From Gallionella sp. (GTDB lineage: Bacteria > Pseudomonadota > Gammaproteobacteria > Burkholderiales > Gallionellaceae), in the NCBI GenBank assembly GCA_030700315.1, contig JAUYJO010000006.1, positions 1 to 64,000 of the forward strand: a stretch of DNA of 64,000 bases, written 5' to 3'. A program made the translations under genes and the position numbers. The notes under the pieces were generated by a model that did not search any database, was not told where the DNA came from, and was given only the letters and a program-made list of their open reading frames with translations. Shown here piece by piece: positions 16,477 through 45,425 of this stretch. Position 1 is the first letter of the stretch, and each line of letters starts with the position of its first letter.

Positions 16477-17439
16477 TCACCCGCCCACGTCCACTTCCTG
16501 CAACTTATCCATATTTAAAAGTAGGGTTTCGACTAGCCCCTCTTCGACATCAAAGACTTTTTTCGCCCGATCAACCTTGGCAAAATATCCTCTTTTCGCA
16601 CGATCCTTGTTGCCGATAGTGAGTATATAGGGCTTCTCTATTTTTTCTTGATGTATGGTCAACTGCAACATCGGTGCAGCCAGACCATAGGGCGCAAGAT
16701 CAGCCGGGCTTTCATCGACAAAGGCCTTTATTTCGCCATTTTTTATCGCGTACAGATATTCCAGCACCTTTGCCATGGAGGCTATCCCCGGCGCGGGTTC
16801 AAGCATATTCCATTTTGACTGATTCTGCACCACCACCACCCGGCCCGCACCCTTTTTGGCTATTTCAAGCCGGCTCAATTTGGTCGGATCGAAATCCAGA
16901 ATGGTCTTGTCGCGCAAGGCATAGGCATCCTGGCTCACCTCTTTCTTGAGGTCCGAGTGTACGCGGTACACCTCCGGCCTTCCCTTGAACATGACATACG
17001 CCATATTATTGGTCGGGCCTCTTTCGCCGAAAACAATAACCGTTTCCCCGTTGGCAGACTTCAAGCCCATTTCGACCTCGGGATCGCCCAAGCCCAGCTC
17101 GACTAATTTGGCTTGGTCAACCTTGTCGAACAGTACCGCATCTTTCCTGGAGGTGACGACGTTGGTCAAGAGCTTTTCTATCGCTTTGACATCCCCCTTG
17201 GCGCTTAATGGCTGAACCAGCTTCCACTCGTCTTTTTCCCGAACCACCTTGATTTGGCGGTTTTCTTTAAGATAATTTATCCAGAATTCCGAGATATCCT
17301 TCACTGCCGTGGGCAGCAGTTTCAGTTGCTCTTCTTTCAACTGCTTGATTGTTTCCTCCTTCTTGTCGAAGAAGAAGAACGCACCGCTCAGCGCGATCAG
17401 CACGATAAACCAGAAAAGGGTCTTTTTAGTAAAGTTCAC
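16477..17439 (-). CDS. DUF4340-like protein
   Basis: N-terminal TM plus KDEWKLVQPLSAKGDVKAIEKLLTNVVTSRKDAV pattern, adjacent to GldG-like gene. Confidence 0.65.
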   Translation of the reverse strand: MNFTKKTLFWFIVLIALSGAFFFFDKKEETIKQLKEEQLKLLPTAVKDISEFWINYLKENRQIKVVREKDEWKLVQPLSAKGDVKAIEKLLTNVVTSRKDAVLFDKVDQAKLVELGLGDPEVEMGLKSANGETVIVFGERGPTNNMAYVMFKGRPEVYRVHSDLKKEVSQDAYALRDKTILDFDPTKLSRLEIAKKGAGRVVVVQNQSKWNMLEPAPGIASMAKVLEYLYAIKNGEIKAFVDESPADLAPYGLAAPMLQLTIHQEKIEKPYILTIGNKDRAKRGYFAKVDRAKKVFDVEEGLVETLLLNMDKLQEVDVGG

Positions 17440-19052
17440 GCGCCCCGCCTTCTTCTGGCGGTTACACCCAGCCCTGCCACCAACAGCAGCGAAGGCACTA
17501 TCACGACGGAAAGCCAGAAAACGATTTTTCCCTGAACCGCAGTCAGCAGCAGGGGGGTCAGCCCCGGTTCTTTTTTCCTGATCGAGATCAAAGTGTGTTC
17601 CTCTGCCAGCCAGTTAAGCATGTTCAGGAGGAAATCCTTGTTCCCCGCCTTCATGAATTTGTTGCTGGCAAAGTCAGAATCGCCCACGACCATGACCTTC
17701 CCCCATGTTTTCATGCTGTCGTCCTGCTCTCCGCCTGTTTCACCGCCCTTGGATTCACCGCCCTTGGCCTTATCGTCCTTGGCTTTATTGCCCCCAAGGT
17801 TCACTTCCACTGCGGTGACGGCCACCACACTGATGGGTCCGCGTTTGTGCTTGTCCGGGTTAAATTCTTCGTCTTCCTTGGTCAATTTCTTGAGATCGCT
17901 GGTCACTGTCCAGCTCTTGTCGCTGGTTTTGGCAATATCCCAACTTCCCTTGGCGGGCTCTTCTTTTATATGTACCGAACGTGCAAACGGGAAAAACGTG
18001 AACTGCTCAAATTCACGGGTGACGGGATGCTCCTTATGGTATTGCACCACCACGGGTATCGCGATATTGCTGCCAGAAACCTGGCTCATCTTATCGAAAA
18101 TGAGATCGTTCGCCAGCTCGAAACCGAACTCGCCCAGGTAGCTCGTGATTTTTGCCAACCCACCGCTGGGGTCAACCATGAACATGACGCGCCCGCCGTT
18201 TTTGACGAATGCCGTTATCTTGTCCAGCTCGGCTTGCAAATAGTCCGTTTCCGGGCCGCTCACCACCAGTACGGAGGCATCATCCGGCACTTTTTCCGCG
18301 CTGACTAACAGCAGGTCGCGCACCTGATGGTTTTCCCTTTCGATCGCCTCCTTGACATACGAATAACCGTCGTCTTCCTTGTTATCGATATTTTTCTCGC
18401 CGTGCCCGGTGACAAAGTAAAAAACTTTGACATCCTTGCTGACCAGTTTAAGCAGTGAGTTGGTCAGCTTGTTCTCGGACTCGGTGCCGATAATTTCCTG
18501 CTTGTTGCCATACTTCAATACCGTAGTCCGGTAGGACGTAATCCCGTACTTTGCCGTTTCGATCGGATCCCTGTCCGGGTCTACAAAGCGAAAGCTGAAT
18601 TTTGGCGAGTGATAGGCGTATTCACCCAGCAGATCGGACATCGCCTGCCTCGTCCTCTCGTCACTGCGGTAGAAAGCGATGGCCTCAACATCCTCGTTCA
18701 GGGACTTTAATATCTTGACCGTGTGGTCGGAGAGGGTATATCTGTTGTCCTGCGTCAAATCGACCCGCACCTTGTATTTGACCGACATGCCCGCGATAAG
18801 GCCAATGATCACGGTAAACACGGCGGTCATAATCGCCGTATTCAAGGCGTACTTGGTGGAACGCTTGGTAATGAATTCTCTGATTTCCGGAAAACAAAGA
18901 TAGAAAAACAGCAGCAATACCAGAAGCCCCACCCAAATCAACGCCAAAGGCAAGTTGCTCATTTCGCCGGTTATCGCATAAACCAGCCCCCCTGCCGCCA
19001 ACAGAACAATGGACAGCAAACCCAATGGCACGAACAATCCTTTAGCCTTCAT
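17436..19052 (-). CDS. GldG-like ABC-type auxiliary component
   Basis: RVDLTQDNRYTLSDHTVKILKSLNEDVEAIAFYRSD..., FYFVTGHGEKNID, TM at both ends. Confidence 0.75.
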   Translation of the reverse strand: MKAKGLFVPLGLLSIVLLAAGGLVYAITGEMSNLPLALIWVGLLVLLLFFYLCFPEIREFITKRSTKYALNTAIMTAVFTVIIGLIAGMSVKYKVRVDLTQDNRYTLSDHTVKILKSLNEDVEAIAFYRSDERTRQAMSDLLGEYAYHSPKFSFRFVDPDRDPIETAKYGITSYRTTVLKYGNKQEIIGTESENKLTNSLLKLVSKDVKVFYFVTGHGEKNIDNKEDDGYSYVKEAIERENHQVRDLLLVSAEKVPDDASVLVVSGPETDYLQAELDKITAFVKNGGRVMFMVDPSGGLAKITSYLGEFGFELANDLIFDKMSQVSGSNIAIPVVVQYHKEHPVTREFEQFTFFPFARSVHIKEEPAKGSWDIAKTSDKSWTVTSDLKKLTKEDEEFNPDKHKRGPISVVAVTAVEVNLGGNKAKDDKAKGGESKGGETGGEQDDSMKTWGKVMVVGDSDFASNKFMKAGNKDFLLNMLNWLAEEHTLISIRKKEPGLTPLLLTAVQGKIVFWLSVVIVPSLLLVAGLGVTARRRRGA

Positions 19053-19834
19053 TATCTCCACCTCTTCGTTTCCAGACTTCTCAGAGTCAGGAACAGGAAT
19101 AGCACGATGAAACAGAGGTAATAAATAATGTCCGTCGAATCCACAACCCCCTTCGACATGCTTTCTATATGTTCGTTAATCGAAAGATAGCCCAGAAATT
19201 TGCCCATCCCGGCAGAGACCAGTTGGACGGAATAACTCAAAAACCAGAAAAAGAATAACATGCCAAAGGATGTTGAAGCGGCAACAATCTGGTTTTCCGT
19301 CAACGACGAAGTAAAAATCCCCAGAGAGATGGCGGAGGCACCCAGCAGGACAAGGCCCAGGTAGCCCGTCCAGATGGGCACGACCTCCGGCTCGCCAAAA
19401 ACCACGAGAAGGATAGGGTAGATGGCCGTCAGCAATATCATGGTGAACATGACAACGAGGCAGGCCAGATATTTACCCAGCACAACGTCAACATCATTGA
19501 CCGGGAAGGTCAGAAGCAACTCGATCGTGCCGGTCTTTTTCTCTTCGGCCAGGAGCCTCATGGTCAACAGCGGCGTCATCAGCAACAAAATAATGCCGAT
19601 GGTTCCGAACAACGGCCTGATCACCGTTTCATTGATATTCAATAATTGATATTGCTTGGCCAGCATGGGATCCGTCTGCGCCTGATAACTGACGATCGAA
19701 AAGGTGGCAACCAGGTTGTAGAAAAAATAACCCGTCATCAGCAAAAACATGATGATGACGATATAAACCGTGAACGAGCTGAAATAGGATTTCAGTTCAC
19801 GGTTGAGGATAAGGCTGACATTCCTGATATTCAT
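19052..19834 (-). CDS. ABC-2 type permease (GldF-like)
   Basis: NVSLILNRELKSYFSSFTVYIVIIMFLLMTGYFFYN; TPLLTMRLLAEEKKTGTIELLLTFPVNDVDVVLGKYLA. Confidence 0.8.
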   Translation of the reverse strand: MNIRNVSLILNRELKSYFSSFTVYIVIIMFLLMTGYFFYNLVATFSIVSYQAQTDPMLAKQYQLLNINETVIRPLFGTIGIILLLMTPLLTMRLLAEEKKTGTIELLLTFPVNDVDVVLGKYLACLVVMFTMILLTAIYPILLVVFGEPEVVPIWTGYLGLVLLGASAISLGIFTSSLTENQIVAASTSFGMLFFFWFLSYSVQLVSAGMGKFLGYLSINEHIESMSKGVVDSTDIIYYLCFIVLFLFLTLRSLETKRWR

Positions 19835-20763
19835 GCCGCCTCCTTGGTGATCAACTTGATGAATATATCTTCCAGGCTCACTTCCAGAAGACGCATTTCC
19901 ACAAGCTCCCATTTATTTCTTTCAATCATGGCCTGGATGCCCAGCCTTCCCTGTTTTTCATCGTCAAACACAACAATAAATCCATGGGTCTCGCCCGAGG
20001 CCGACTCCAGCTCAACCCCCTTGAGGCCGCTCACGCGAGCAAGCTCCTGCTCAATCGCCTGCGCATTACCGTTGATGCGCAACAACATCCGCTGCGCACT
20101 TTCAGTTGCCAAGTTCTCCGGGCGGTCTTCTGCCACCACTTTGCCCTTGTTGATAATAATCACCCTGCCACAAAGAATGCTGACTTCCGGGAGAATATGG
20201 GTGCTGAGAATTACGGTGTGCCTGCCCGCCAATTCCTTGATCAGGCTTCTGATCTCTTTGATCTGCTTGGGATCAAGGCCTACCGTAGGCTCGTCAAGAA
20301 TCAATACCTCCGGGTCATTGACCAATGCCTGAGCAATGCCGACTCTTTGCCTGTACCCGCCGGATATCGTGTTGATCAATTTGTTGGAAACGTCGCTGAG
20401 ACCGCAGTCATCCATGACCTTGGCGGCTTTACGGTTGACCTCCTTGGCCGGCGTCCCCTTGATGGCCGCCACAAAACGCAGGTAGTCGCTCACCTTCATG
20501 TCTTCATAGAGCGGGACTCTCTGCGGGAGATAACCTATCCTTCTACGCACGTTCAAAGAATCTTCGAAACAATTGTAGCCTGCCACCATGGCTTTCCCTC
20601 TGGTGGGCGGGAAAAAACAGGTCAAAATGCGCATTACCGTGGTTTTCCCCGCCCCGTTGGGCCCGAGAAACCCCAGTATTTCACCCTTCTCAACACTGAA
20701 GCTGATATTGTCAACGGCGCGGAACTCGCCGTATTCCTTGGTTAAATTTTCGACTTCAATCAT
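19831..20763 (-). CDS. ABC transporter ATP-binding protein (GldA-like)
   Basis: GFLGPNGAGKTTVMRIL Walker A, SGGYRQRVGIAQALV signature, VLILDEPTVGLDP Walker B. Confidence 0.92.
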   Translation of the reverse strand: MIEVENLTKEYGEFRAVDNISFSVEKGEILGFLGPNGAGKTTVMRILTCFFPPTRGKAMVAGYNCFEDSLNVRRRIGYLPQRVPLYEDMKVSDYLRFVAAIKGTPAKEVNRKAAKVMDDCGLSDVSNKLINTISGGYRQRVGIAQALVNDPEVLILDEPTVGLDPKQIKEIRSLIKELAGRHTVILSTHILPEVSILCGRVIIINKGKVVAEDRPENLATESAQRMLLRINGNAQAIEQELARVSGLKGVELESASGETHGFIVVFDDEKQGRLGIQAMIERNKWELVEMRLLEVSLEDIFIKLITKEAA

Positions 20764-21099
20764 TGGATTTGCTTTATCAATTGCCAATTGGCAATGATAG
20801 CAGTAATTGATTTTTTGGCGCAACACTGTTTATCCATCACCGCACGCCTGTTTATATATCGGGGTGTCACTGGTTACCCCGCAGGCGAGATATAAAGACA
20901 AACAAAGCGCCGCACGGCTCTCAAGTTAAATAACTTACTGAATAATTGCAGACTTTTCTTGTTTTTCGTGGATAAATAGAGGTTTGCATGGCCAAATATT
21001 TTTTGAACCAATTTTAGGGTGTGCTATCATAAACCCGCGCAATAAAGGTGCCACCATATACATTTGAGGTCATAACTCACTTTTAAAGGGATTTATTTT

Positions 21100-23308: not shown

Positions 23309-23422
23309 AACCCAGATAGTTCATTAGCTATTGGGGTATTGCAAAATCAATGGGTTGTAGGTCGGGTTTTAACACGACATGTCGGGCTAAAGCCCGACCT
23401 ACGTCCAAATGGATTATCTGGG
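23309..23422. repeat. AACCCAGATAGTTCATTAGC...GGATTATCTGGG element, copy 1
   Basis: Same sequence at 47828, 53926 and 59582; internal GTAGGTCGGGTTTTAACACGACATGTCGGGCTAAAGCCCGACCTAC palindrome. Confidence 0.9.
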
Positions 23423-23437
23423 ATAGAGGAGAGTGCT

Positions 23438-23971
23438 TTGATTCTGAAGCGTAATACAAATTTTGTTGGTCGCATTTTGCTGCTGCTCGCCTTTGCGATA
23501 GCGGGTTGCAGCCCCATGGGTGGCACCAGCACCCTACCCGAGGATGGCCCTGAAACCGTCACCAAACGGTTCTATGAATTAATCTCGGCCGCGAAAATGG
23601 AAGGGGGCTCCACGACCGCCAGTGAAGCGTTCAAGCTGGTCGATACCAAGCTTTCCAATATGAACGTGAACCAGTTCCTGGAAGTCATCAAGCGCTATCC
23701 GGAAAAATTTGTCGTGGAAGTAGGCAAAACCGAGATCAAAGGAACCCAAGCCCTGGTTTCCATCAGCTACAAGATGCCCTCCAGCTTTGGCGGCGAATAT
23801 ACGGTGCGTGAAATATTGCCTCTTAATATCGACCCGGTTACCAATACCTGGAAGGTCGACTTTACCGGCGACACTTACGGCATGCAAAAGGATGAGGCCA
23901 TAGCGGCAAGCAAGGCGGAAGCCTCCCCACCGAGCGAACCAGACAAATCGACACCACCAGGAGCCAAATAA
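23438..23971 (+). CDS. Exported lipoprotein, DUF4878-like; TTG start preferred because the upstream ORF extension is repeat sequence
   Basis: Lipobox AIAGCS; GPETVTKRFYELISAAKMEGG; extension 23339-23437 is translated repeat. Confidence 0.6.
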   Translation: MILKRNTNFVGRILLLLAFAIAGCSPMGGTSTLPEDGPETVTKRFYELISAAKMEGGSTTASEAFKLVDTKLSNMNVNQFLEVIKRYPEKFVVEVGKTEIKGTQALVSISYKMPSSFGGEYTVREILPLNIDPVTNTWKVDFTGDTYGMQKDEAIAASKAEASPPSEPDKSTPPGAK

Positions 23972-24594
23972 TGTCTAATGCCGTCAAAGTTGCAGAGTGG
24001 ATCAAGGAGCGCATCCGCTTAAAAAAAGGCAAGCCGATACCCGCGCATGTCAATTTCTTTTATTGCTTTGGCGGCATCTCGCTGTTCCTTATCCTCCTGC
24101 AGTTGGCCTCCGGCGTATTCATGCTTTTTTTCTATACGCCCGAGCCTGACAAGGCGCTGTTAAGCATCGCACATTTAAGCAATGAGGTCACCTTGGGGTG
24201 GCTGTTCAGAAACATGCACCGCTGGTCCTCCACACTGTTGCTTGCGACGGTGTTTTCCCACATGGTCATCGTGTTCTACTTGAAAGCCTTCCAGAACCCC
24301 AGGCAATTGACCTGGATGTCCGGCGTATTCCAGTTGCTCACGGTATTTTTGCTGGTGGTCACCGGGCTGATTCTTCCCTGGGATTGGAGGTCATACTGGT
24401 CTTTCGCGATCTGGATGGATTACATCGGTACATGGACGGTTGGCGGCGAATCCTTACAGAATATGCTGCTGGACACCTTCACTCTGAATGCGGCCTATTT
24501 TATCCACATCCTGATCATTCCGTTAATTCTCGCGGTTTCCCTGTCTTTCCATTTCAAAATGGTCAGGCGGCACGGAATATCGGAGCCACTGTAA
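23971..24594 (+). CDS. Cytochrome b6 N-terminal-type subunit
   Basis: FYCFGGISLFLILLQLASGVFMLFFYTPEPDKA, NMHRWSSTLLLATVFSHMVIVF, LPWDWRSYWS. Confidence 0.88.
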   Translation: MSNAVKVAEWIKERIRLKKGKPIPAHVNFFYCFGGISLFLILLQLASGVFMLFFYTPEPDKALLSIAHLSNEVTLGWLFRNMHRWSSTLLLATVFSHMVIVFYLKAFQNPRQLTWMSGVFQLLTVFLLVVTGLILPWDWRSYWSFAIWMDYIGTWTVGGESLQNMLLDTFTLNAAYFIHILIIPLILAVSLSFHFKMVRRHGISEPL

Positions 24595-24616: not shown

Positions 24617-25297
24617 ATGGCGAACCAAGAGATAGAAATCATCATGGAGCCCAAATACGCTCCTCCTTATCCGCAGTCGTTCTATGCTTTCTGGCCGAAG
24701 CACGCGATCAAGGCAGGGACGCTGATATCCCTCATATTGCTGGGATTGTTATTGCTGGCCTTTTTCATCAGGGTGCCGATGGATCCCAACATGCCACCCA
24801 TGCCCGATGAGGGCGCCTATGTGCCCGCGCCTGAGTGGTATCTGTTCTTTCTGTTTCAACCCTTTTGGTATTTGGCGGGGGATAACGCGAAATGGTTGCC
24901 GATCGGGACGTTTTGGCTCCCGCTTCTGGTTGTGGTTTTTCTATTTCTGATACCCTTTATCTTTCGCAAACGCAAAGACTCACGCGCCGGAATCAAGGCA
25001 GCCACTCTGCTGTCGGCTGCCGTTTATGCCGTGCTTGTATGGGCAGTTCCCGTGGGAGCCGTGGTTGCCAGCGGCGCTCCCGCCAAAACCCTGGGTTGCC
25101 CGTCTTGCCACAATCCCATGATGGGCGAGCGGCAGGCGTTGCCTCCCGCCAATATGGGTGAGTACTACAGGGTCGAACGCCAGCGCCAGGTCAATCTGGG
25201 CGGTTATAACATGGGTAGCGACGACCACGCTGGCGGATCGTACAAGGATGCAAACTGGCAACTGCGCCATTTTTATGAGCCCACAATGACCTGGTAA
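24617..25297 (+). CDS. Subunit-IV-like cytochrome b C-terminal protein with CxxCH tail
   Basis: PEWYLFFLFQPFWYLAG; C-term LGCPSCHNPMMGERQALPPANM. Confidence 0.85.
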   Translation: MANQEIEIIMEPKYAPPYPQSFYAFWPKHAIKAGTLISLILLGLLLLAFFIRVPMDPNMPPMPDEGAYVPAPEWYLFFLFQPFWYLAGDNAKWLPIGTFWLPLLVVVFLFLIPFIFRKRKDSRAGIKAATLLSAAVYAVLVWAVPVGAVVASGAPAKTLGCPSCHNPMMGERQALPPANMGEYYRVERQRQVNLGGYNMGSDDHAGGSYKDANWQLRHFYEPTMTW

Positions 25298-25304
25298 CCC
25301 ATGT

Positions 25305-26624
25305 TTGGTAACGATAAATATGTTTTCAATGAGCGCGCCCTTTAATCTTTCTCTGCAAAAAACCGGTTTCGGCCTGATGTTGTGTGCAGCCTTGCTGGGC
25401 GGTGGGTCAGCTTGCGCACAGGATCAACACGACCATGGCAATACCCAAACCCCGGCTATGCCCACAGACCCCATGAGCGGCCACGGCCATGGCGATCACC
25501 AGACCCATTCAACAACCACGACCCCCATCAAGGAAGTGCCGTTACCCGAAGGACTCAGTTCGGCGCAGTCGATGGCAATAGACTCGACCGGACGACTCTG
25601 GTTTACCGAAAAAGTCGGCAAAAACCTGACCATGTATGACCCGGATAAAAAAGAGTTTTCGACCTACCCGCTCCCTGTCTCATGGGGGAAGATGGGCTTT
25701 TCAAACATGACGCTGGGACCCGATGGAGACATCTGGTTTACCGTGACGCGCTGGGTTGAGGGTGCGGAAGAGCCCAATATTCTGGGCAGGTTTTCGCCGG
25801 CGGACGGATATTTTACAAAATATGCCATTCCGCACAATTCAATTCCCGAAGAATTGGTCGTCGATGCACAAGGCACGATATGGTTTTTTGCCTCCAATAA
25901 AAACTATCTCTATCGCGTCGATCCGAAGACTTTCGCCCTCAAAGGATATCCCATTCCGACCGCCAACGGTAACCCCAAGAGCTTGGCTGCCGATCCAAGA
26001 GGCCATATCTGGTTTGTCGAATCCAACGCCAATAAACTCGGAGAATTTATTCCGGAGCAGGGAGTATTCAATGAATATGAAGTGCTCACGCAATTTGCCA
26101 ACCTGGGAAAAATCTCCATCGACAAGAATGGAAAAATATGGTTTGTGGAAGTCACCGCAAACCGGATCGGAGTATTTTCACCCGAGCAGAAACGCTTTGA
26201 TGAAGCCATCATCCCCACCCCCAGCAGCACACCCGTTGCACTGGTAAACGATGACAAGGGGAACGTCTGGTTTCTGGAATACAAAGGCAACAAGGTTGGC
26301 GTCTTCAATCCGGAGCAGGCGACCTTCCATGAATTCGATATTCCCAGCTTCGGCAGCTTACCGGCAGACATGGCGATAGATCGCAAACGCTCTCTGCTCT
26401 GGTTCACCCAGAGCGCCACAGAAGCAAAGACGCTGGGGATGCTGTCCATCGACGAAGCGTTGGCGAAAATAGACCAACAAAGCAAAGCCCCGCTACCGGC
26501 TCCCGAGAAAAAAGCCTCCGAAGGCAGCATGACTCAATGGCTGGTTGCTTTCGCCGCAATTATTGGTATCGCCATGCTGGGCGTGAGGTTAACCAGGAGA
26601 GCTCGCAAAGGCGGCGCTTCATAA
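25305..26624 (+). CDS. Vgb/virginiamycin B lyase-like beta-propeller protein with C-terminal TM anchor
   Basis: Repeated D..G.(I/L)WF(T/V)E..N.(I/V/L)G.F.P modules; C-terminal WLVAFAAIIGIAMLGVRLTRRARK. Confidence 0.82.
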   Translation: MVTINMFSMSAPFNLSLQKTGFGLMLCAALLGGGSACAQDQHDHGNTQTPAMPTDPMSGHGHGDHQTHSTTTTPIKEVPLPEGLSSAQSMAIDSTGRLWFTEKVGKNLTMYDPDKKEFSTYPLPVSWGKMGFSNMTLGPDGDIWFTVTRWVEGAEEPNILGRFSPADGYFTKYAIPHNSIPEELVVDAQGTIWFFASNKNYLYRVDPKTFALKGYPIPTANGNPKSLAADPRGHIWFVESNANKLGEFIPEQGVFNEYEVLTQFANLGKISIDKNGKIWFVEVTANRIGVFSPEQKRFDEAIIPTPSSTPVALVNDDKGNVWFLEYKGNKVGVFNPEQATFHEFDIPSFGSLPADMAIDRKRSLLWFTQSATEAKTLGMLSIDEALAKIDQQSKAPLPAPEKKASEGSMTQWLVAFAAIIGIAMLGVRLTRRARKGGAS

Positions 26625-26814
26625 ACTCAACTTGCAGGTTTTTTGCTGCACATGTACCCCATCAAAATGGGGAAACTTTCGCGGCTTTAATGTATCTGTA
26701 AACCAATACTTAACTGAGTGTCAGCCTTGGCTTGGTTGCTCTCCTTCCGGCTTGGCTCTTCTTCCTGCAACCATGCACTCGTGCCTTCACACTATTTCAA
26801 ACAAGGATAATGCG

Positions 26815-27804
26815 GTGAAAAAAGTAGCTTTTTTTTGGATAATTTTCAGCAGTTTTTTATGCTCTTCCTCATGGGGCGCCGATGTCTTTCGATCTTTCAA
26901 AATACCCACAGAATTTACCTTGCCGACAAGAATTGCCATCGACAAAACAGATACCGTTTGGTTTATTGCGTCAAACTTTCATAAAATCGGGCGGTTTCAG
27001 CCGGCCCGGGGTATTTTTTCCGAGCACGACATCCCCACCCCAAAAAGTGTTCCCTCGGACATAACTATCAGCAACACCGGCAAACTATGGCTTACCGAGT
27101 CCGACTCAAACCAGCTCGGCGTTCTCGATCCTGTCTCGCTGACGTTCAAGGAATACGATATCCCCACGATATCCAGCAATCCCGGAAGAATTGCGTCCGA
27201 CCTCAACGGGAATATCTGGTTTACCGAATTTTATGGCAATAAAATTGGTATGTTCGACCCTCGCAAAGAGACTTTCCGTGAATATCCGGTGCCTACGCCC
27301 GATAGCCGCCCGTCCGGTATTACCGTGGATAAAAAGGGCATAGTGTGGTTCCTGGAATCCGAGGGCAATAAACTGGCCCGGTTAAACCCCAAAGATGGGG
27401 CGATTCAAGAGTTCAAATTACCCGAATCGCACGAAACCCCCCGAGACTTGATTATAGACCGCGCGGGGATGCTCTGGTTTGGCGGCCACATAGGGCGAAA
27501 TTTGATGGTATTTAACCCCGCGACAAAAAAATTCAAATCCTTTTTCTTGCCCAATAACGGCGCAATTGAAAGCTTGGCCGTGGGGATGAATGGCAAGATA
27601 TACTGCACCCTCCTGACAAGCGGCAAAATCGCCGTATTTGACACGGCAACCCACGCGTTTCTGGAACTGGACGTGGGCGTGGGCAAGAGCAAACCCAATG
27701 GCATCAGCGCTGATTCAAAGGGAGATATCTGGTTTACTGATACGGATAAAAATACCCTGATCAAATTGGATGCTCGTATGGCCGCCAAACTGTGGGTAAA
27801 ATAA
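26815..27804 (+). CDS. Vgb/virginiamycin B lyase-like beta-propeller, secreted (GTG start proposed)
   Basis: VKKVAFFWIIFSSFLCSSSWGA signal; repeated NIWFTEFYGNKIGMFDP modules. Confidence 0.8.
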   Translation: MKKVAFFWIIFSSFLCSSSWGADVFRSFKIPTEFTLPTRIAIDKTDTVWFIASNFHKIGRFQPARGIFSEHDIPTPKSVPSDITISNTGKLWLTESDSNQLGVLDPVSLTFKEYDIPTISSNPGRIASDLNGNIWFTEFYGNKIGMFDPRKETFREYPVPTPDSRPSGITVDKKGIVWFLESEGNKLARLNPKDGAIQEFKLPESHETPRDLIIDRAGMLWFGGHIGRNLMVFNPATKKFKSFFLPNNGAIESLAVGMNGKIYCTLLTSGKIAVFDTATHAFLELDVGVGKSKPNGISADSKGDIWFTDTDKNTLIKLDARMAAKLWVK

Positions 27805-27859: not shown

Positions 27860-28381
27860 ATGAAAAAATATGGGTGGGCGGTGGGTTTATTTATTTTTGT
27901 AATCGTTGCTGCGGTTGGCGCAGTGGCTATTCCTAACCCGTTAAGTGCGCAGATACTGACCGAAGCCAAGTACCGTGGCTATCTCCCCTATACCACTGAC
28001 GAGGCTATTACCCTTGCCTACCAACGCTGCACCACCTGCCACCCCGCTGACAAAATGCTCAAATACTGCTCTCGCTGCGGCCCGCCCTTTATTGTCGTTT
28101 CTCAATCCATGAAAAAATACACGGAATTGATGAACGAGAAAGGCGGCAACTTTAAGCCGTTCTCCGATGCGGAGACAGTTGCAATTACACAGGTCTGGAA
28201 CGGCTTGGTCGGAAATTGGGAGCCGGATTGGGGCACGAAAGACATCAAGAAGCTCTTGCAGGGCGATCAGGCGCTGATTCGTTTGGCTGAAACGCCCGTA
28301 GCGCAAAGACCCATAGAAGTGGCGCTAAAAAACAAGCAAGCGCCAGGTTCGCATAAAGAGGACAGGAAAACCGTTCCCTAA
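27860..28381 (+). CDS. Membrane-anchored mono-heme c-type cytochrome-like protein
   Basis: N-terminal TM; RCTTCHPADKM (CxxCH). Confidence 0.75.
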   Translation: MKKYGWAVGLFIFVIVAAVGAVAIPNPLSAQILTEAKYRGYLPYTTDEAITLAYQRCTTCHPADKMLKYCSRCGPPFIVVSQSMKKYTELMNEKGGNFKPFSDAETVAITQVWNGLVGNWEPDWGTKDIKKLLQGDQALIRLAETPVAQRPIEVALKNKQAPGSHKEDRKTVP

Positions 28382-30817: not shown

Positions 30818-30851
30818 CTATGCTGCTGACTTGTGTTTTATCCAATCTGGC

Positions 30852-30954
30852 GTAGCTGCTCAGGTCAAACGATTTGCTCACAGAACAACCACAACGCCAG
30901 TTCCTTACCCATGGAAGCGGGGAAGGTGAAAAATTGCCGCACCTGAGTAGTTGC
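30852..30954. repeat. GTAACTACTCAG-type ITR element (degenerate left end)
   Basis: GTAGCTGCTCAGGTC...GCACCTGAGTAGTTGC; shares CACAACGCCAGTTCCTTACCC with 47239 and 50895. Confidence 0.75.
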
Positions 30955-30968
30955 AATCGGGCGGAATT

Positions 30969-35087: not shown

Positions 35088-36053
35088 TTAATTTTTGACC
35101 TTAAGTGGAACTGCACTCGCGTCAAGCCTGTTTCCGCCAGAGACATACCCGCCGCCGACCAGCTCGGTACCAGGAGCGCGCCCGGTCATTTCGGATTCAA
35201 TCGTCTCTTGGATATCCTTGAATTCCGCGCTCTTCGAAGCATTGAGCGCATCTACATCACCCTTGATCGGCTTGAAGGTAGATTTAGGGTTAAGGTATGC
35301 TTCCACGCTGGTGGGTGGCGGTACATCCTGCATCGCGCGGATAAAGGCGATGACGTTCCAGATGTCCTGATCCTGCAGCACGTTACCCCAATTAGGCATG
35401 GACGAAGACAGCGATACCTGCTCGCCGCCACCCTTGATCACCGCAAACAACTCAAGGTTGGTCTTCTTGTTCATGTAATCGCCACGGGTCAGTGTTCTCG
35501 GGCGTGGGTTCAACTCGGAAGCGCTGGGGCCGTCACCGTGCATCAACCAGCCGTGGCAGGCGATACAGTAGGAGTAGTAATAAGTCTTACCATGATTCGG
35601 GTCAGCACCGGCAACCAGCGTTGCGCCAAATTTGGGCGACCAGTTGTTGGTCCACTGATCGTACACGCTTTTATCGGTCACGCCATCCGACGAAGGCGCT
35701 TTTACGCGATCCCACAATTCTGTCTTGAGACCGCCTTTGGTTTCTCCGCCATAACCGCTGTCCGTCTTGAAAGTTTTGGTGTCGGAGTTGCTGCGCTTGC
35801 CTACACCCGTCAAGTAATCGAACGGTGCAATACCATAGGTACTACCGCCTTTACCTTGCTCCATGTCATCGCCTTCTTTCAGAAACGCGGCGGATGCTTT
35901 TTTCGCTTCTTCTTCAGTTACGGTAGGGCACACCACCTTCTGCCCACCGGCGGTACAGCGCTTCTCCGGCGCGGCAAAAGATGACGCACTTCCCCACATC
36001 ATGCCCAAACTCGTCACTGCGATCAGGCCTATTTTCAACTTGGCATTCTTCAT
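35088..36053 (-). CDS. Exported mono-heme cytochrome c
   Basis: Signal peptide; YSYCIACHGWLMHGDGPSA; SMPNWGNVLQDQDIWNVIAFI. Confidence 0.88.
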   Translation of the reverse strand: MKNAKLKIGLIAVTSLGMMWGSASSFAAPEKRCTAGGQKVVCPTVTEEEAKKASAAFLKEGDDMEQGKGGSTYGIAPFDYLTGVGKRSNSDTKTFKTDSGYGGETKGGLKTELWDRVKAPSSDGVTDKSVYDQWTNNWSPKFGATLVAGADPNHGKTYYYSYCIACHGWLMHGDGPSASELNPRPRTLTRGDYMNKKTNLELFAVIKGGGEQVSLSSSMPNWGNVLQDQDIWNVIAFIRAMQDVPPPTSVEAYLNPKSTFKPIKGDVDALNASKSAEFKDIQETIESEMTGRAPGTELVGGGYVSGGNRLDASAVPLKVKN

Positions 36054-36132: not shown

Positions 36133-37890
36133 TTACAGACCCTTCACACGCTCCGCTACAGTAAGCTGACCCTCTTCCAACAAGCCTGGCAGATGCTGCG
36201 CCTTGTCATAGTCACCCACAGCCAGGTTGGAAGCGCCTTTTTTGGGATCGTCAACAAAGAACGCTGCTCTCATTTCCAGATGCAACGGTCCGCAGAAGTG
36301 CGTACAGAAGATTTCATATTCGCCAGCAATATCCGCCGTGAACTCATGCACTGAAGTCACGCCGCGCGGCAGATCCATGTTGGACCGCTGACCATAAGGG
36401 CCATAGATCGTCAAACCCATCGTGACGTCAGGATTCTTGGTGATACCGGCCGCCTTGTCGATGTTGGTAGCGAACAGCCGCACCTTGTCGCCCTTGTTCA
36501 CCCTGACCTGACGGGGGATGTAACCGTAGCTGAAGGCCTTCATGTGAATTTCCTTCACGCCATCAACCAGCTTGACACCCGGCGGTGTGGTTTCCTTGGG
36601 AATAAAGTAGCGCTTCGAAAATGCACGATGCGGAGGATCCAACAGATCGGTTCTGCCATTGATCAAACCGCCCTGCTCTGCCTGGCCCTTGGTCCAATCT
36701 TTGACCAGATAAGCCATCAGTCCCTTGGCGTTATGCGGCTCGCCGTCCACCGGCATGATCTTCAGAGTCTTGCCGTAGGTGGGGCTCTTTTCCCGCGCAT
36801 CCCACATCTCGAAGTTGACCGGGAAGACAATACCCGTTGGGCTGAACAGGCCGGTTGAGAACTTGTTCAACGCCATCACGTAGGAGTTATCCGGACTGAT
36901 GGAAATATGCCCGGTTCTATAGTGGGTCGGAATCTCGTCAACCACTTCAAGTTTTTTCAGGTCAATCTTCACGTTAGCATCAGCCACGAAACAGCTCTCG
37001 TAGGCGTACTTGGAAGTCAGGCCATCCGGGCTATCTATGCCAGCCCGGTAGGAACCGCCGTCCTTGTTATACACGTCCATGACCGAATGCAGAGGACCCG
37101 CGCAAGTCGGCAATACTTTCTTGACCGCCAATTTCTGGGTATCGATGATGGTCATGGTCGCCGAGAGCTTGTCGCTCACCAGCACCAGCGTACTTTCAGG
37201 GATGACGTCGGTGCCGTGCGGATTTTTGCCTACCGGGATTTCCTTGATCAGCTTGAAAGGGCTGGTGGAAAACACACCCACGGTGGAATGGTAATAGTTA
37301 CCCGCGAAAACATACTTGCCATCCCTGCTGGCGTCGATATAGTCCGGCGCGCTCGGTGAAGGACCCCAGTCAATCACTTCGGTCTTGCCGGTCTTGATCT
37401 CGACTTTGGCCATCTTGCCGCTATACTCACCCGTTCCAAACAGGTGCTTGCCATCGGTGCTCATTGCAATATGGTGAACGCCAAACGGGAAAGGCAGAGC
37501 AATGACTCTGGCCAAATAGCCGGTTTGAATATCGAACTCGCAAATCGTGTTGGCGCCCTTGTCGTTCAGGTAAACGTATTTGCCGTCCGGCGTACCGTTC
37601 TTGTTACCCTTGTTGCTGCCGCCGAAGGAAATTTCGTGCGTGTCCACGCCGCAATCAACGTGGCGATAGGTTTTGAAACTGGGAATACCGATGATCGCCA
37701 TCTTGCCGTCCACACCGCCGGACGAGTACAGGATCATCGGGTCGATGGTCGGCGTATCCTTGCCATCCGGAACCGCAACCTGCCACCCCGGTATGACCTG
37801 CGATTTATCCGCAGCCGCATTCGCTGTGCTAGCCATCAAGCAACTCATTGAAAGAGCGCTCATCATTAAAAATTTCGTTTTGTTTTGCAT
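36133..37890 (-). CDS. Divergent nitrous-oxide reductase (NosZ)-like protein with C-terminal CuA cupredoxin domain, Sec signal
   Basis: CuA motif FCTHFCGPLHLEM; NosZ-like blocks DGKYVYLNDKGANT, FGVHHIAMS, KNPHGTDV, AGPLHSV, HYRTGH, LNKFS, GEPHNA; VDTHEISF where NosZ has the HH motif. Confidence 0.82.
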   Translation of the reverse strand: MQNKTKFLMMSALSMSCLMASTANAAADKSQVIPGWQVAVPDGKDTPTIDPMILYSSGGVDGKMAIIGIPSFKTYRHVDCGVDTHEISFGGSNKGNKNGTPDGKYVYLNDKGANTICEFDIQTGYLARVIALPFPFGVHHIAMSTDGKHLFGTGEYSGKMAKVEIKTGKTEVIDWGPSPSAPDYIDASRDGKYVFAGNYYHSTVGVFSTSPFKLIKEIPVGKNPHGTDVIPESTLVLVSDKLSATMTIIDTQKLAVKKVLPTCAGPLHSVMDVYNKDGGSYRAGIDSPDGLTSKYAYESCFVADANVKIDLKKLEVVDEIPTHYRTGHISISPDNSYVMALNKFSTGLFSPTGIVFPVNFEMWDAREKSPTYGKTLKIMPVDGEPHNAKGLMAYLVKDWTKGQAEQGGLINGRTDLLDPPHRAFSKRYFIPKETTPPGVKLVDGVKEIHMKAFSYGYIPRQVRVNKGDKVRLFATNIDKAAGITKNPDVTMGLTIYGPYGQRSNMDLPRGVTSVHEFTADIAGEYEIFCTHFCGPLHLEMRAAFFVDDPKKGASNLAVGDYDKAQHLPGLLEEGQLTVAERVKGL

Positions 37891-38738: not shown

Positions 38739-40271
38739 TCAGGCAGCAGTTTTCCTGGCAGCGCTACGCGACCACCACAACAGTCCCGCCACAAACAGTC
38801 CCGCGACCAGCAGCGCCAGAACCAGAGGCTTGGAACCGGTAGCCGGCTTCAACAACAGCCAATACCAGGTAGTCATGGTGTGCTTCGAGCCTTTCTCACT
38901 ATTATTGCTGCCATCCCAAGCGGCAAAAGCAACCGGGATGAACTTGCCCTCAATAAACTGAATATCCTTCTCGGGTGCGGAAGTAGTGAGCGGCCTGGTT
39001 ATCAGCGCCTTCCAGGTACCATCGCTATAAATCGCCTTGGCCTTGAGCCCGACCCCGGCCGCCTCGCGCTTCTCAATCGACTTGAAGCCTTTGCTAGTCA
39101 TCAGGCCGAGTGTTTCTGCCGCCTCAGTAGTGCCGCTCTTCCAGTGCCAGATGTTGACCGGATGCGCCTCATCTCCCATGCCGAAATAAGGTTTTTGCAT
39201 TTCCTTGGGAATCACGACGGGCAGTTGCACCGCGACGCCGTCTTCCGCAATCGGCGCATCGGCCAGCTTACCTGCGCTATCATCCCCCGGAATGCTCTTG
39301 GTGCGGTCATCCCACTCCAGCAGCATCGCAATCGACTTGTCGTTATACATCGCGCGCACCGTAATGGAGTCATTGGAAGGCGTGAAATAACGCTCCTCGC
39401 CGATGATTTGCGGAACCAGGGCGAAAGTGGTCGGGGTAGACTTTTCCCAGCGCTCATCTTCCGGCGTGGCGGGCAATTCGCCCTCCACCATGTCCGCCTT
39501 GACCACGGTGTTTTCCGCATTAACCAGTTTATCGGTCTTGGCCAACGATGCCACATAGTTGGCCACATGCCAAATTTCTTCGGTCGAGAGCTTCTTTTTG
39601 CTCGCCGGATCGATGAAGGAGGGCATCGCAGTACCGGGGATGCCGGTAGAAACCCGCGTAAATATGTCCTTCGGATCATTGCTGCCACGGAAAGTCCAAG
39701 GCTTGGTCAGATTGCGCGGCCAGGTACGCTCGCCGTTATCCCCTTTGAGCCGCTTGCTGGCGCTGCCCTTGCCCGACTTGCCATGACATTCCACGCAGCG
39801 ATCGCCATCCTCGAACAACTTCTTGCCCTTCTCGATGCTTTCGGCAGAACTTTTGACCTGCGAGCCGAAGTCGACCTGCTTGGCGGGAGGCTTGTCAAAG
39901 CCGGCGAAGGTTTTGACATAAGCCACCAAGTCCCACATATCCTGCTCGTTCAGCAAGTCGCTCCAACCCGGCATGGCGGTGCCCGGCATACCATCGCGTA
40001 TCATGCGATAGACGTCGTCATCATTCGGCGTCATGTCTTCAAAACCGGATGTTTTGATCTTGTAGTTGCCGGAAGTAAAATCCCGTGGCGGCGGGTTGAG
40101 GCGGTCTTGGGCCGCACCGTCACCCGCACCCTCCGCGCCGTGACACCAGGTGCAGCGTTTGTCATAGATTATCTTGCCCTTGTCGGCTGCCCCCGGTTTC
40201 GCCGAGGCCGACCCCGCCATAAACAGCGCGGCACAGAAGGTTAGGAAAGCCAGTTTTTTTACAGAACTCAT
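38739..40271 (-). CDS. Di-heme cytochrome c fused to an ethylbenzene-dehydrogenase-gamma/NxrC-like haem-binding domain, C-terminal TM anchor
   Basis: CTWCHGAEGAGDG and CVECHGKSGKGS; ...ITVRAMYNDKSIAMLLEWDDRTKS...; C-term LALLVAGLFVAGLLWW. Confidence 0.8.
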   Translation of the reverse strand: MSSVKKLAFLTFCAALFMAGSASAKPGAADKGKIIYDKRCTWCHGAEGAGDGAAQDRLNPPPRDFTSGNYKIKTSGFEDMTPNDDDVYRMIRDGMPGTAMPGWSDLLNEQDMWDLVAYVKTFAGFDKPPAKQVDFGSQVKSSAESIEKGKKLFEDGDRCVECHGKSGKGSASKRLKGDNGERTWPRNLTKPWTFRGSNDPKDIFTRVSTGIPGTAMPSFIDPASKKKLSTEEIWHVANYVASLAKTDKLVNAENTVVKADMVEGELPATPEDERWEKSTPTTFALVPQIIGEERYFTPSNDSITVRAMYNDKSIAMLLEWDDRTKSIPGDDSAGKLADAPIAEDGVAVQLPVVIPKEMQKPYFGMGDEAHPVNIWHWKSGTTEAAETLGLMTSKGFKSIEKREAAGVGLKAKAIYSDGTWKALITRPLTTSAPEKDIQFIEGKFIPVAFAAWDGSNNSEKGSKHTMTTWYWLLLKPATGSKPLVLALLVAGLFVAGLLWWSRSAARKTAA

Positions 40272-40290
40272 AATTATTCCCAATCGCAGA

Positions 40291-41073
40291 TTATTCATTT
40301 GCCCACGACCTTGGCCGTCTGCCCGTGTAGTCATACAGGTACAGGATAACTTTCCATATCTCATCCTCGGTCAGGAAATCCTGCCAGATGGGCATGGATG
40401 AAATCCACGGCGCTGCCTCAGCAGGCAAGCCCGGGCCGCCGGTGGCAATACGCCAGAACAGGAAGGATTCCTGCAACTGCGCGATGGTGCCCACGTCCTG
40501 GAAGTTGAGCGGCGTGGGGTTCAACCCCGATGCGTAAGGTCCCTTGCCATCCAGTTTATCGCCGTGGCAATACTGGCAATTCTGGATGTAAACATTACCG
40601 CCCGCTTTGACCAGCTCGGCAAACTTCGCCGGATATTCCTTCTCGAATTTGCGATAAGGGTTCTCCAGTGTAGCCAGGTTGAAGCTCTTGCCATACGCCT
40701 TGAACTTGCTGGGCGGCGCGGGGTGGATGGTACGCAACTCCACCGGAGCCTCGAAGCTGGGCATCAGGCTCGAGTAGGTATAGTAACCGGCCAGCAGCGG
40801 CACAATCACAAACACCACATTGCGCACCATTTTCCTGGAGGGATCCTCGACCAATGCTTTGATGGGGCCCACCAGCTCCTGTGCCCCTTCCTCGGTAAAG
40901 GTAAATACCATCACCACCCCGGCCACCACGAACACCATATACATGGTGAGCAGGCTCTTGGGGATCAACTGTCCCAGAATCACGTCGAAAACCAGGATGA
41001 AGCTGAAAAACACCCCCAGTATAACCAGGGCGAGTTGCAACAAACGGGGAATGCGTCTTTTCTGTGTTGTCAT
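40291..41073 (-). CDS. Membrane-anchored mono-heme cytochrome c (N-terminal TM helices)
   Basis: IQNCQYCHGDKLDGKGPYASGLNPTPLNF; N-terminal hydrophobic helices. Confidence 0.85.
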   Translation of the reverse strand: MTTQKRRIPRLLQLALVILGVFFSFILVFDVILGQLIPKSLLTMYMVFVVAGVVMVFTFTEEGAQELVGPIKALVEDPSRKMVRNVVFVIVPLLAGYYTYSSLMPSFEAPVELRTIHPAPPSKFKAYGKSFNLATLENPYRKFEKEYPAKFAELVKAGGNVYIQNCQYCHGDKLDGKGPYASGLNPTPLNFQDVGTIAQLQESFLFWRIATGGPGLPAEAAPWISSMPIWQDFLTEDEIWKVILYLYDYTGRRPRSWANE

Positions 41074-41075
41074 GA

Positions 41076-41885
41076 TTATTTCAACCCTGCCATATAATTA
41101 ACCAGCAACTCAAGCTCTTGCGCTTTCAATTGCTCTCCATAGGTCTTGGGCATCATGCCCCCGGCAAATCCTTTTGCAATAACCGCATCGGGATCGAGTA
41201 CCGCCTGGCGCAAATATTCCTTGCTCTGCTTGGCACCAATCTTGGTAAGATCCGGCCCCAACGCGCCAGTCTGATCCAGAATCTTATGGCACATACCGCA
41301 GGTGTACTTGGCGATGACCTCTTCAGCCGTTTTTAGCGGAGCAGCTTCCTCTGCCTTCGGCGCCTCCTCACCTGCGGCGGGCATGGCTGGAATGGCGACC
41401 GTCACTTCGGCACCGCCCGAGTCCTGGAGATAAGCGATAACAGCGGCGAGTTCGGCCTCGTTCAGACCGATCCCGCCACCCGTCACATCCGGCATCGGGC
41501 TTTCGGTATCGTTGGTTCCCGCTTTACCGAATCCAGAAACTACATAGGCCGAAGGCTTAACCATCGCCTCGTGGATATACTCCTCGACCGTTTTTGCCGT
41601 GCCCTTGTAACGGGCATCTTTCATGTGCTCTTCTGCCTTCGCACCGATCGTGTCGAGCATTGGCGCCCGGCCCATCGAGTTATGGCACAGCGTACACGTC
41701 CCCTTGCCGTTATATATCTTGCCGCCCAGCGCGATGAACTGATCCATGGTCATCGCACCGAGATCCAGCTTCTCCTCTACGGGGGGCGGCGCGGGTTTAA
41801 TCGTCGGGATGCCGAAATTCGAATACCCCCAGAATGCGCCCACCATCAAGATGCTGAAAATGGAAACCTTAAGAAAATTGGTCAT
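41076..41885 (-). CDS. Di-heme cytochrome c
   Basis: GTCTLCHNSMGRAP and YTCGMCHKILDQTGALGPDLTKIG. Confidence 0.88.
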   Translation of the reverse strand: MTNFLKVSIFSILMVGAFWGYSNFGIPTIKPAPPPVEEKLDLGAMTMDQFIALGGKIYNGKGTCTLCHNSMGRAPMLDTIGAKAEEHMKDARYKGTAKTVEEYIHEAMVKPSAYVVSGFGKAGTNDTESPMPDVTGGGIGLNEAELAAVIAYLQDSGGAEVTVAIPAMPAAGEEAPKAEEAAPLKTAEEVIAKYTCGMCHKILDQTGALGPDLTKIGAKQSKEYLRQAVLDPDAVIAKGFAGGMMPKTYGEQLKAQELELLVNYMAGLK

Positions 41886-43807
41886 GCTTGTTCCTTCCAA
41901 TAACCTTTTGCAACCACATGTTTGCCGCTGATCGTGCTCAGCCAGAACACAAAGATGACCATGGCCATGAATATGAGCGTACCTGTCGACACAATGTTGG
42001 CCGCATAACCCAGATCCGGCGTAAAGGCATCCGGAGAGTTATCGCGGAACACGTTGGACACGTGCCAGTGCTGGCGGATCGCGGAACGGACGTAGCCCAT
42101 CAGCCCCATCAGCCAGGTGAAGGACACCGCCAACAGAAATAGCGCGTACTGCGAACGGTTGGGCATGCGCCCCCAATGCAGCGGCGCCACTTCTTTCGCC
42201 CCCTTGTACATGAACGAGTCGAGCACCACGCTGAGAATGATGACAACCAACGTCGTCAGAACCTGCGGTATGGAAGCCGCAACCTTGTACACCGTATTGG
42301 TGAAGTAGCCGTAATAGATACCCAGTACCATAATGTTGATGGCAGCCGTGACAAACAGGGCGATCTGCGCCGCATTGCCCGCTTTTACCCAGGATACAGT
42401 GGCAATTTTATTGGCGCGCCGGTAGTACACGAAGCTCAGGAAGGTTCCCAGCAGCAGGAAATTCACCGCCGTGTTTTTGGCCGGCATGATGCCCAGCACC
42501 CCCAGATATTGATGGTAGGGTCCACCGAGGCTCTTGAGCTCGGAATTGGTCAGCACCAGCGTGTGCGGCGTAAACCACACCAGGAAAGCCGCCACCAGGA
42601 CAATGGCGATATATTTGATCTTGGGGTTGTAGCGATAAGCGCCTTCACTGCGCCCTATGCCGCACCAGAGATAATAGTTGGCCGACAGGAACAGGGCGCC
42701 GATCAACACGGCCTGGATGATGAACAGCCAGGCAAACGCGCCGCCCATCAGGGTGATGCCCATTTGCTGGCTATAGGCATATATTTCTGCGGTGAGATAG
42801 TAGCCGGCGAAAGGCAGCGGCAACAGCGCCGCTATCGCGATGAAGTTGGCGTTGTAACCCATCCAGTCATAATGGGCACGTTCATCCTTGTTCTTGGCGC
42901 TGAGGAATTTGAAGGCAGCATAGGCGCCCACAATCGAGCCGCCATAGGCCACGTTCGCGACCACCCGGTGAATATTGATCGGGTTCCACAGGAAATTGTG
43001 AATCGCAGCCCAAGTATCGCCATGGAACACGCCCGCCGGATCCAGCCCCGCAGGGCTCATCATGAAGGTTGTCCAGGCATTGGCCAGGAACATCAGCAAG
43101 CAACCGACCGCATTGAGCAGCAAGCCGAAAGTCAGGTGTACCCACTTTTTGTTGCCGCCCTGGAGCCAGTGCCAGCCATAATAATAAACATACAAGACCG
43201 CGCTCTCGGCAAAGAACAGCAGCGCATACGCCCACATGCTTTCCTTGAAGACCAAGGCCATATATTTAAACAAGTCCGGATAGAACAGGATCAGGCCGAA
43301 AGACAGCAAGCCGCCCAGAAGCGCGGTAAGCGAATAGGCGGTGATACTGACCTTGATGAACTCGTAGGCCATGTTGTCATAGCGCTCATCCCGGGTCGCC
43401 ATGCCGATGGCCTCGATGATGAACACGAACATCGGCACCGCCACCACAAACGCACCGAACCACAGGTGCAACTGGGCCACCAGCCACACTGCCACCCGTG
43501 AATTCACCCCTTGAATCTTGGGGTAATCCGCTTCGGTCAATTTTGGCACGGGGACGGAAATCTCCGCCGCCGCAGCTGGAGCGGCGTCTGTTTTGGCAGC
43601 AGCGGCATCTACAGGTGCCGCTGCGGATGCTGCAGCAGGCGCTGCAGGTGTCTCAGCAGGTGCAGTCGCGACCGCTGCAGCAGGGGCCGCTGCGGACGCT
43701 GCTGCCTCGGATGCGCTCGCGGCAGGCGTGAAGGCAGGCAGCATAAACATGGCAAAAACCGCCAATAAAAATGCCCCGCCGATTAATCTTATATTTCTTG
43801 TTAGCAA
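41882..43807 (-). CDS. Cytochrome bd-like oxidase subunit I homologue (CydA superfamily, divergent) with Ala/Pro-rich N-terminal segment
   Basis: Polytopic; VAQLHLWFGAFVVAVPMF, LFFAESAVLYVYYYGWHWL, WNPINIHRVVANVAYGGSIVGAYAAFKFL resemble CydA blocks. Confidence 0.78.
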   Translation of the reverse strand: MLTRNIRLIGGAFLLAVFAMFMLPAFTPAASASEAAASAAAPAAAVATAPAETPAAPAAASAAAPVDAAAAKTDAAPAAAAEISVPVPKLTEADYPKIQGVNSRVAVWLVAQLHLWFGAFVVAVPMFVFIIEAIGMATRDERYDNMAYEFIKVSITAYSLTALLGGLLSFGLILFYPDLFKYMALVFKESMWAYALLFFAESAVLYVYYYGWHWLQGGNKKWVHLTFGLLLNAVGCLLMFLANAWTTFMMSPAGLDPAGVFHGDTWAAIHNFLWNPINIHRVVANVAYGGSIVGAYAAFKFLSAKNKDERAHYDWMGYNANFIAIAALLPLPFAGYYLTAEIYAYSQQMGITLMGGAFAWLFIIQAVLIGALFLSANYYLWCGIGRSEGAYRYNPKIKYIAIVLVAAFLVWFTPHTLVLTNSELKSLGGPYHQYLGVLGIMPAKNTAVNFLLLGTFLSFVYYRRANKIATVSWVKAGNAAQIALFVTAAINIMVLGIYYGYFTNTVYKVAASIPQVLTTLVVIILSVVLDSFMYKGAKEVAPLHWGRMPNRSQYALFLLAVSFTWLMGLMGYVRSAIRQHWHVSNVFRDNSPDAFTPDLGYAANIVSTGTLIFMAMVIFVFWLSTISGKHVVAKGYWKEQA

Positions 43808-44771: not shown

Positions 44772-45425
44772 TTACTCGAAAGAAGCCACATAAGCAGCCA
44801 CGTTCTCCAGGTCTTTCGGATTAAGCACGCTGCCAAAGTCCGGCATATCCCGAACCGGTTTGAATGCTTTGATGTTTGCCATATAGGCGTAAATCCAGTC
44901 AGGATTCAAGCGCTTGCTGGCTCCAACCAAGGAAGGTCCGCTCTTCCCGCCGCGTACTGCGCCCTTATCCGAGTATTCGTGACATCCGCTACACGGCATT
45001 TTTTTGGCGAAAATATTCTTGCCCTGAACATTGCTCTTAGCCTTGATCACGCCCGCTTTGACATCCTTCGAGGTCAACCCCATCAGGAATTCCGAAACTG
45101 CAGCCGCATCTCCAGCAGACATCTTGGGGTGATCACCCGCATTTTTGTCGGTGAGCGAGTTATATTTCATCGGGCGAATCGGCTTGGGAGCCTGCAGCCA
45201 CGCCGTGAGCCAATCCTTCTGGAATTTGCTGCCGGCGTAAAATAGTTCCGGCCCCTTCTTTGCCAATTGATCCGCTATCGTTTTTTCTTTTGCTGGACCA
45301 TCGGTGTAATGGCAACTGGCGCAACTCTTCTTAAAAATCGCATCTCCACCAGCCGCGTAGCTGGGCGCTGTCATTGTGACCAGCAAAGCCGCCCCAAGGG
45401 AAACGGTGACTGCGAGCAATCTCAT
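44772..45425 (-). CDS. Di-heme cytochrome c
   Basis: KSCASCHYTDGPAKE and MPCSGCHEYSDKGAVRGGKSGPSL. Confidence 0.88.
   Translation of the reverse strand: MRLLAVTVSLGAALLVTMTAPSYAAGGDAIFKKSCASCHYTDGPAKEKTIADQLAKKGPELFYAGSKFQKDWLTAWLQAPKPIRPMKYNSLTDKNAGDHPKMSAGDAAAVSEFLMGLTSKDVKAGVIKAKSNVQGKNIFAKKMPCSGCHEYSDKGAVRGGKSGPSLVGASKRLNPDWIYAYMANIKAFKPVRDMPDFGSVLNPKDLENVAAYVASFE

Follow-up and report, generated by a model that had tools for sequence, protein, structure and literature searches.

The gene at positions 36133..37890 (minus strand) of the window, i.e., the entire analyzed stretch of 64,000 nucleotides from a Gallionella sp. contig, encodes a member of the clade III (lactonase-type) nitrous oxide reductase family (L-NosZ), distinct from clades I and II. 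This identification is based on a 750-bit match to the NF052460 model, on columns invariant in 28 relatives, and on pairwise mapping to canonical NosZ. With a probability of roughly 0.7, we interpret the product as a periplasmic clade III N2O reductase, for which sequence comparisons predict a rearranged copper site with seven histidines, a methionine (Met491) in the CuA site, and maturation independent of NosD and NosL. A broader and more tentative proposal, whose chances we place slightly below even, is that at least the proteobacterial branch of clade III shares the rearranged CuZ site (H130 replaced by glutamate and a histidine following H178), the methionine-containing CuA site, and NosD/NosL-free maturation relying on a dedicated gene module. 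If true, a catalytic, N2O-reducing copper cluster would be reached by a second route, through this site and module. Enzymes of the NosZ type are the principal biological sink known for N2O, a potent greenhouse gas.

Identification and phylogeny of the L-NosZ protein

The L-NosZ open reading frame is intact, starting with ATG at 37890 and ending with a stop codon at 36133; it encodes a product of 585 amino acids, and a good ribosome-binding site (AAGGGGAGT) is located immediately upstream of the ATG. The protein matches the NCBIfam model NF052460 (L-NosZ, "clade III lactonase-type nitrous-oxide reductase") with 750.4 bits against a cut-off of 700 and covers model positions 1-480 of 480, whereas its scores with the clade II model TIGR04246 (152 bits) and the clade I model TIGR04244 (92.5 bits) are well under the cut-off of 625 used in both. 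The Tat signal is absent; the N-terminus (MQNKTKFLMMSALSMSCLMASTANA/A) reads as Sec-like and has no twin arginine, in agreement with the Sec-type signal proposed earlier from the sequence. The architecture comprises a seven-bladed YNCE/lactonase-like propeller and a C-terminal CuA domain; among Pfam models, YNCE and Lactonase score above the cut-off and Cupredoxin_1 is weak (20.1, cut-off 27). Together with the score above the curated cut-off over the full model, the Sec signal, the lactonase-like propeller, and the CuA domain conform to clade III L-NosZ, and no feature of the protein excludes membership. NosZ chains in the PDB match the protein in HMMER searches with E-values down to 3e-17, and the top PDB matches found by Foldseek are all NosZ; the model used in the latter search (AlphaFold2, 28-row alignment, pLDDT 65) is of low confidence and served for the fold alone.

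Scanning of genome contigs yielded 32 L-NosZ loci, mainly from Gallionellaceae/Nitrosomonadales and other Pseudomonadota, but also from Nitrospirota and one deltaproteobacterium. In a tree of 28 L-NosZ and five canonical NosZ proteins, all 28 form one clade with 100/100 support, apart from the five canonical sequences; the window protein is nested among Gallionellales/Nitrosomonadales sequences, which places it outside clade II. No relatives were found in the viral contigs searched, and the plasmid search returned canonical-type matches only, at ~25% identity. Two contigs labelled as Candidatus Moraniibacteriota and Thiothrix (L027 and L028) carry L-NosZ clusters 90-91% identical to Gallionellales-type ones and are probably mis-binned.

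The clade III family was published by He et al. (2025, Nature 646:152), with N2O reduction described, as far as that work is cited in PMC13122619 and PMC13274427, and the window protein is a new member of it. An earlier paper had presented the same family in Nitrospirota class 9FT-COMBO-42-15 as NosZ-like proteins with a lactonase-type propeller, leaving their function open, and found a Nitrospirota L-NosZ gene transcribed along with denitrification genes (PMC11033732). Our locus L057 is contig nzgw271 from that study, and its protein is 63% identical to the window protein. Three features presented below may be new: the E86/H140/M491 pattern, which is invariant, the strict split in NosD occurrence, and the gene module. 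A pangenome of iron-oxidizing Gallionellaceae contained no nosZ, from which it was concluded that these bacteria are unable to denitrify to N2 (PMC10734462); this claim needs revision for the members of the group carrying clade III NosZ, an enzyme missed by classical gene searches.

Residues of the copper sites

The motifs GVDTHEISF, FGVHHI, NPHG, GPLH, HYRTGH, GEPH, and FCTHFCGPLHLEM were all located in the open reading frame, including the altered first motif and the other motifs to which the sequence-only reading had drawn attention. The protein thus resembles canonical clade I/II NosZ in its CuA domain, in the NPHG, GPLH, HYxxGH, and EPH motifs, and in the NosZ fold as its best PDB match. 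It differs from them in the changes from DTHH to DTHE, from HG to HH, and from DLTHGF to DVTMG in the CuA site, in the lack of NosD, and in forming a separate clade.

The first CuZ motif, D-[T/L]-H-E, occupies invariant columns in 28/28 L-NosZ sequences (GVDTHE as compared with canonical GDTHH), and in all 28 a glutamate (Glu86 in the window protein) stands at the place of P. stutzeri H130, the second histidine of the CuZ pair. The glycine following H178 in canonical NosZ is replaced by a histidine (His140), again invariant in the 28 sequences. Pairwise alignment gave the equivalences H85 = H129, E86 = H130, and H139 = H178, with His140 as a new residue, and motif comparison added H225 (H326), H268 (H382), H328 (H433), and H386 (H494). 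Among the seven histidines of canonical NosZ (H129, H130, H178, H326, H382, H433, and H494), six are therefore matched by motif and the H130 place is not, so the canonical arrangement is not reproduced exactly; the candidate CuZ ligands of L-NosZ are again seven (H85, H139, H140, H225, H268, H328, and H386), one of them relocated.

The mapping of E86 to H130 is based on motif agreement and pairwise alignment. In alignments with clade I and clade II NosZ, D-x-H-E lies over D-T-H-H and V-H-H-I over F-H-G-I, and in that of the L051 protein with a clade II NosZ the alignment continues, with LHEPVFSGT over THHPAISET. Six of the twelve pairwise alignments pair D-x-H-E with DTHH, four stop short of this stretch, and two place it elsewhere, while the profile-profile alignment set GVDTH on an upstream loop and not on GDTHH.

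In P. stutzeri NosZ, single replacement of six of the seven CuZ histidines abolishes metalation, and in the H382A variant an inactive [3Cu:2S] center remains (PMC11573801). Given the effect of these six replacements, the cluster should not survive a plain loss of H130, and it is therefore simplest to assume that H140 compensates, i.e., that His140 may replace the missing H130 equivalent as a candidate CuZ ligand. The sequence-only reading had proposed that at least one CuZ ligand is replaced and that the protein may be a diverged N2O reductase whose copper cluster is modified. The replacement of the H130-equivalent histidine by Glu86 bears out the first point at the level of the residue, but loss of a ligand is not established, since the new invariant histidine beside the H178 equivalent may compensate for it. 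The second point fits clade III membership and the exchange of histidine for glutamate, which could mean a cluster different from canonical CuZ, but the altered motif is a trait of the whole family (28/28) and not a peculiarity of this protein. Alternatively, the enzyme might be an N2O reductase holding its cluster by six histidines and the carboxylate of Glu86, with an altered cluster edge and changed O2 or pH tolerance. The invariance of Glu86 and its location exactly at the H130 position speak for such a ligand, but we consider it improbable because His140, invariant and immediately adjacent to the H178 equivalent, is a simpler substitute, and we know of no case of carboxylate ligation of CuZ.

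The CuA motif was described as recognizable in the sequence-only reading, which holds for its C-terminal half, where C529, C533, H537, and M540 are canonical, but that reading overlooked the upstream CuA histidine (P. stutzeri H583, in DLTHGF), which is replaced by Met491 (in DVTMG) and is a methionine in all 28 L-NosZ proteins. When the protein is aligned by HMMER with PDB chains carrying the H583F, W, A, or Y replacement, the position mutated in those chains coincides with the methionine of DVTMG. In P. stutzeri, H583 serves as a mobile CuA ligand, swinging in and out, and has been proposed as an electron-transfer gate (PMC11573801).

The loss of two canonical ligands (the H130 and H583 equivalents) would also be expected of a degenerate, inactive paralogue hitchhiking in a cytochrome cluster. 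We regard this explanation as very improbable: dN/dS between the window L-NosZ and five relatives is 0.08-0.11, which means purifying selection and indicates a functional gene, the remaining ligands are strictly invariant across Pseudomonadota, Nitrospirota, and a deltaproteobacterium, and L-NosZ is present in a single copy in its own genome (95% complete), in which no canonical NosZ was found. On the basis of the same dN/dS values and the motif invariance in 28 sequences, a pseudogene and a one-off mutation were rejected as well.

Absence of NosD and NosL

NosD and NosL belong to the canonical CuZ assembly. Neither NosD (TIGR04247) nor NosL was found in the genome of the window organism (95% complete) or in its L-NosZ-carrying genus mates, two of which are 99% complete, and both are present in the genus mates with canonical NosZ (G005 and G010). 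In these two genus mates, the NosZ encoded together with NosD and NosL is of the canonical clade I type (L015 and L014, respectively); one genus therefore contains both NosZ types in different species.

Across the genomes compared, NosD scores above the cut-off in 4/4 with canonical NosZ (G005, G010, G736, and G743; in the last two on the same contig as canonical nosZ) and in 0/23 with L-NosZ alone, a split to be read as a pattern and not as 27 independent trials because the comparison involves related genomes, many of them incomplete. NosL was found in two of 12 L-NosZ genomes, both from Nitrospirota. Weak NosD matches in Nitrospirota and deltaproteobacterial genomes (63-93 bits) were rejected as NosD because their neighbors are unrelated genes. 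This includes the nzgw271 genome, for which nosDFLYX has been reported in the MAG (PMC11033732), whereas here NosD reached only 74 bits against a cut-off of 300 and the match adjoins unrelated genes.

Owing to the fixed ligand changes and the absence of NosD, it can be tested what an N2O-reducing copper cluster truly requires of the classical assembly route.

Gene neighborhood

The genes downstream of L-NosZ in loci of gamma-, alpha-, and deltaproteobacteria and of Nitrospirota encode a lipoprotein, a cytochrome b, a PetD-like heme c protein, and two Vgb-like propellers, to which several loci add c-type cytochromes as well as a GldA/F/G-like ABC transporter; in L042, an SCO1 copper chaperone is encoded upstream of L-NosZ. 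The genes of this module occupy 16.5-28.4 kb in the window, some of them on the opposite strand. Those on the plus strand encode the small lipoprotein (23339..23971), whose homologue is directly 3' of L-NosZ in L042, L051, L055, and L057; a PetB-like cytochrome b (23971..24594; Pfam Cytochrome_B), located close to L-NosZ in loci from gamma-, alpha-, and deltaproteobacteria and Nitrospirota; a PetD-like membrane protein with one CxxCH heme site (24617..25297), which has no Pfam match and is assigned by syntenic homologues after cytochrome b beside L-NosZ elsewhere; two Vgb-like beta-propeller proteins (25305..26624 and 26632..27804; Pfam Vgb_lyase), both conserved in the module; and a small c-type cytochrome-like protein (27860..28381) with a heme-type CxxCH, no Pfam match, and homologues in 8/32 loci.

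The minus strand carries the genes of a GldA-like ABC ATPase (19831..20826; NCBIfam GldA with 320 bits, below the cut-off), which comes after the L-NosZ module in L042, L044, L048, L053, and L055, a GldF-like ABC-2 permease (19052..19912), also in the module neighborhood, a GldG-like ABC auxiliary protein (17436..19061; Pfam ABC_transp_aux, NCBIfam GldG), and a DUF4340 protein following GldG (16477..17439; Pfam DUF4340, three loci). The product of 21100-21831 resembles by eye the formylglycine-generating enzyme (FGE-sulfatase) family, and its homologues occur near L-NosZ in L040 and L046.

L-NosZ itself belongs to a second block containing c-type cytochromes and a CydA-like protein, which is conserved in Gallionellaceae, Casimicrobiaceae, Sedimenticola, and a deltaproteobacterium. 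All its genes are on the minus strand, with products assigned by Pfam. They comprise a c-type cytochrome (35088..36053; Cytochrome_CBB3), which is the commonest L-NosZ neighbor, with a homologue in 27/32 loci, in most of them either directly next to L-NosZ or within its cluster; a diheme cytochrome c with an EB_dh domain (38739..40364; 10/32 loci); a membrane-anchored cytochrome c (40291..41073); a further cytochrome c (41076..41900; 8/32 loci); a membrane protein similar to cytochrome bd subunit I (CydA) (41882..43807; Cyt_bd_oxida_I, 8/32 loci); and another diheme cytochrome c (44772..45425; 7/32 loci). The CydA-like protein, encoded amid several c-type cytochromes and without a recognized CydB, is possibly a cytochrome bd-like oxidase of the OR-N type.

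The region between the module and L-NosZ (29358-34855) encodes a HemY-type protoporphyrinogen oxidase, a radical SAM protein near NirJ2/AhbD with PCP_red domains, and a universal-stress/PCP_red protein. It is conserved next to L-NosZ in 14-15 of the 32 loci and looks like a tetrapyrrole or heme modification unit.

Proposed function

From these data, we infer the following scheme for the reaction, the roles of the ligands, the path of the electrons, and maturation, the supply of electrons by cytochromes and the contribution of the ABC transporter being deduced from synteny. The C-terminal CuA domain, with Met491 in place of the canonical gating histidine, would receive electrons from a c-type cytochrome, itself probably supplied by the cytochrome b/PetD-c complex of the module. 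From CuA, electrons would reach the copper cluster in the seven-bladed propeller, where N2O would be reduced to N2. The cluster is probably kept by the seven candidate histidines listed above, with Glu86 as the partner of H85 and the seventh histidine moved to H140. Maturation would proceed via proteins of the module (the GldAFG-like ABC transporter, the Vgb-like propellers, and the lipoprotein) and not via NosD/NosL.

Since NosD is missing and one ligand is changed, the main rival to an N2O reductase whose copper site is rearranged is an enzyme of the NosZ fold with a different substrate or cluster, i.e., with a sulfide-free or smaller copper site, on the pattern of thiocyanate dehydrogenase, and c-type cytochromes carrying electrons in or away. 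Such an enzyme would be compatible with glutamate at the H130 position in all 28 proteins, with the absence of NosD from 23/23 genomes having L-NosZ only, and with the strong co-occurrence with c-type cytochromes and the CydA-like protein. We nevertheless regard it as unlikely, although less so than glutamate ligation, because the CuA domain and all other CuZ histidine motifs are kept, a histidine that may compensate is present at position 140, the family is described as N2O-reducing (He et al., 2025, as conveyed by PMC13122619), and the genome of the window organism, like most of the other genomes with L-NosZ that were tested, encodes NirS-type cytochrome d1 proteins. The co-occurrence with NirS-type proteins fits a role of the preferred N2O reductase in denitrification. 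Thiocyanate dehydrogenase is a NosZ-related copper-binding propeller enzyme with a trinuclear copper site and without a CuA domain. The window L-NosZ differs from it in possessing the CuA Cys/His/Met motif.

Contig C103 of genome G000 encodes, near a CuA-type subunit (L005), two divergent heme-copper oxidase subunit I proteins (L090 and L091), which show weak or no NCBIfam matches and are candidates for unusual nitric oxide reductases.
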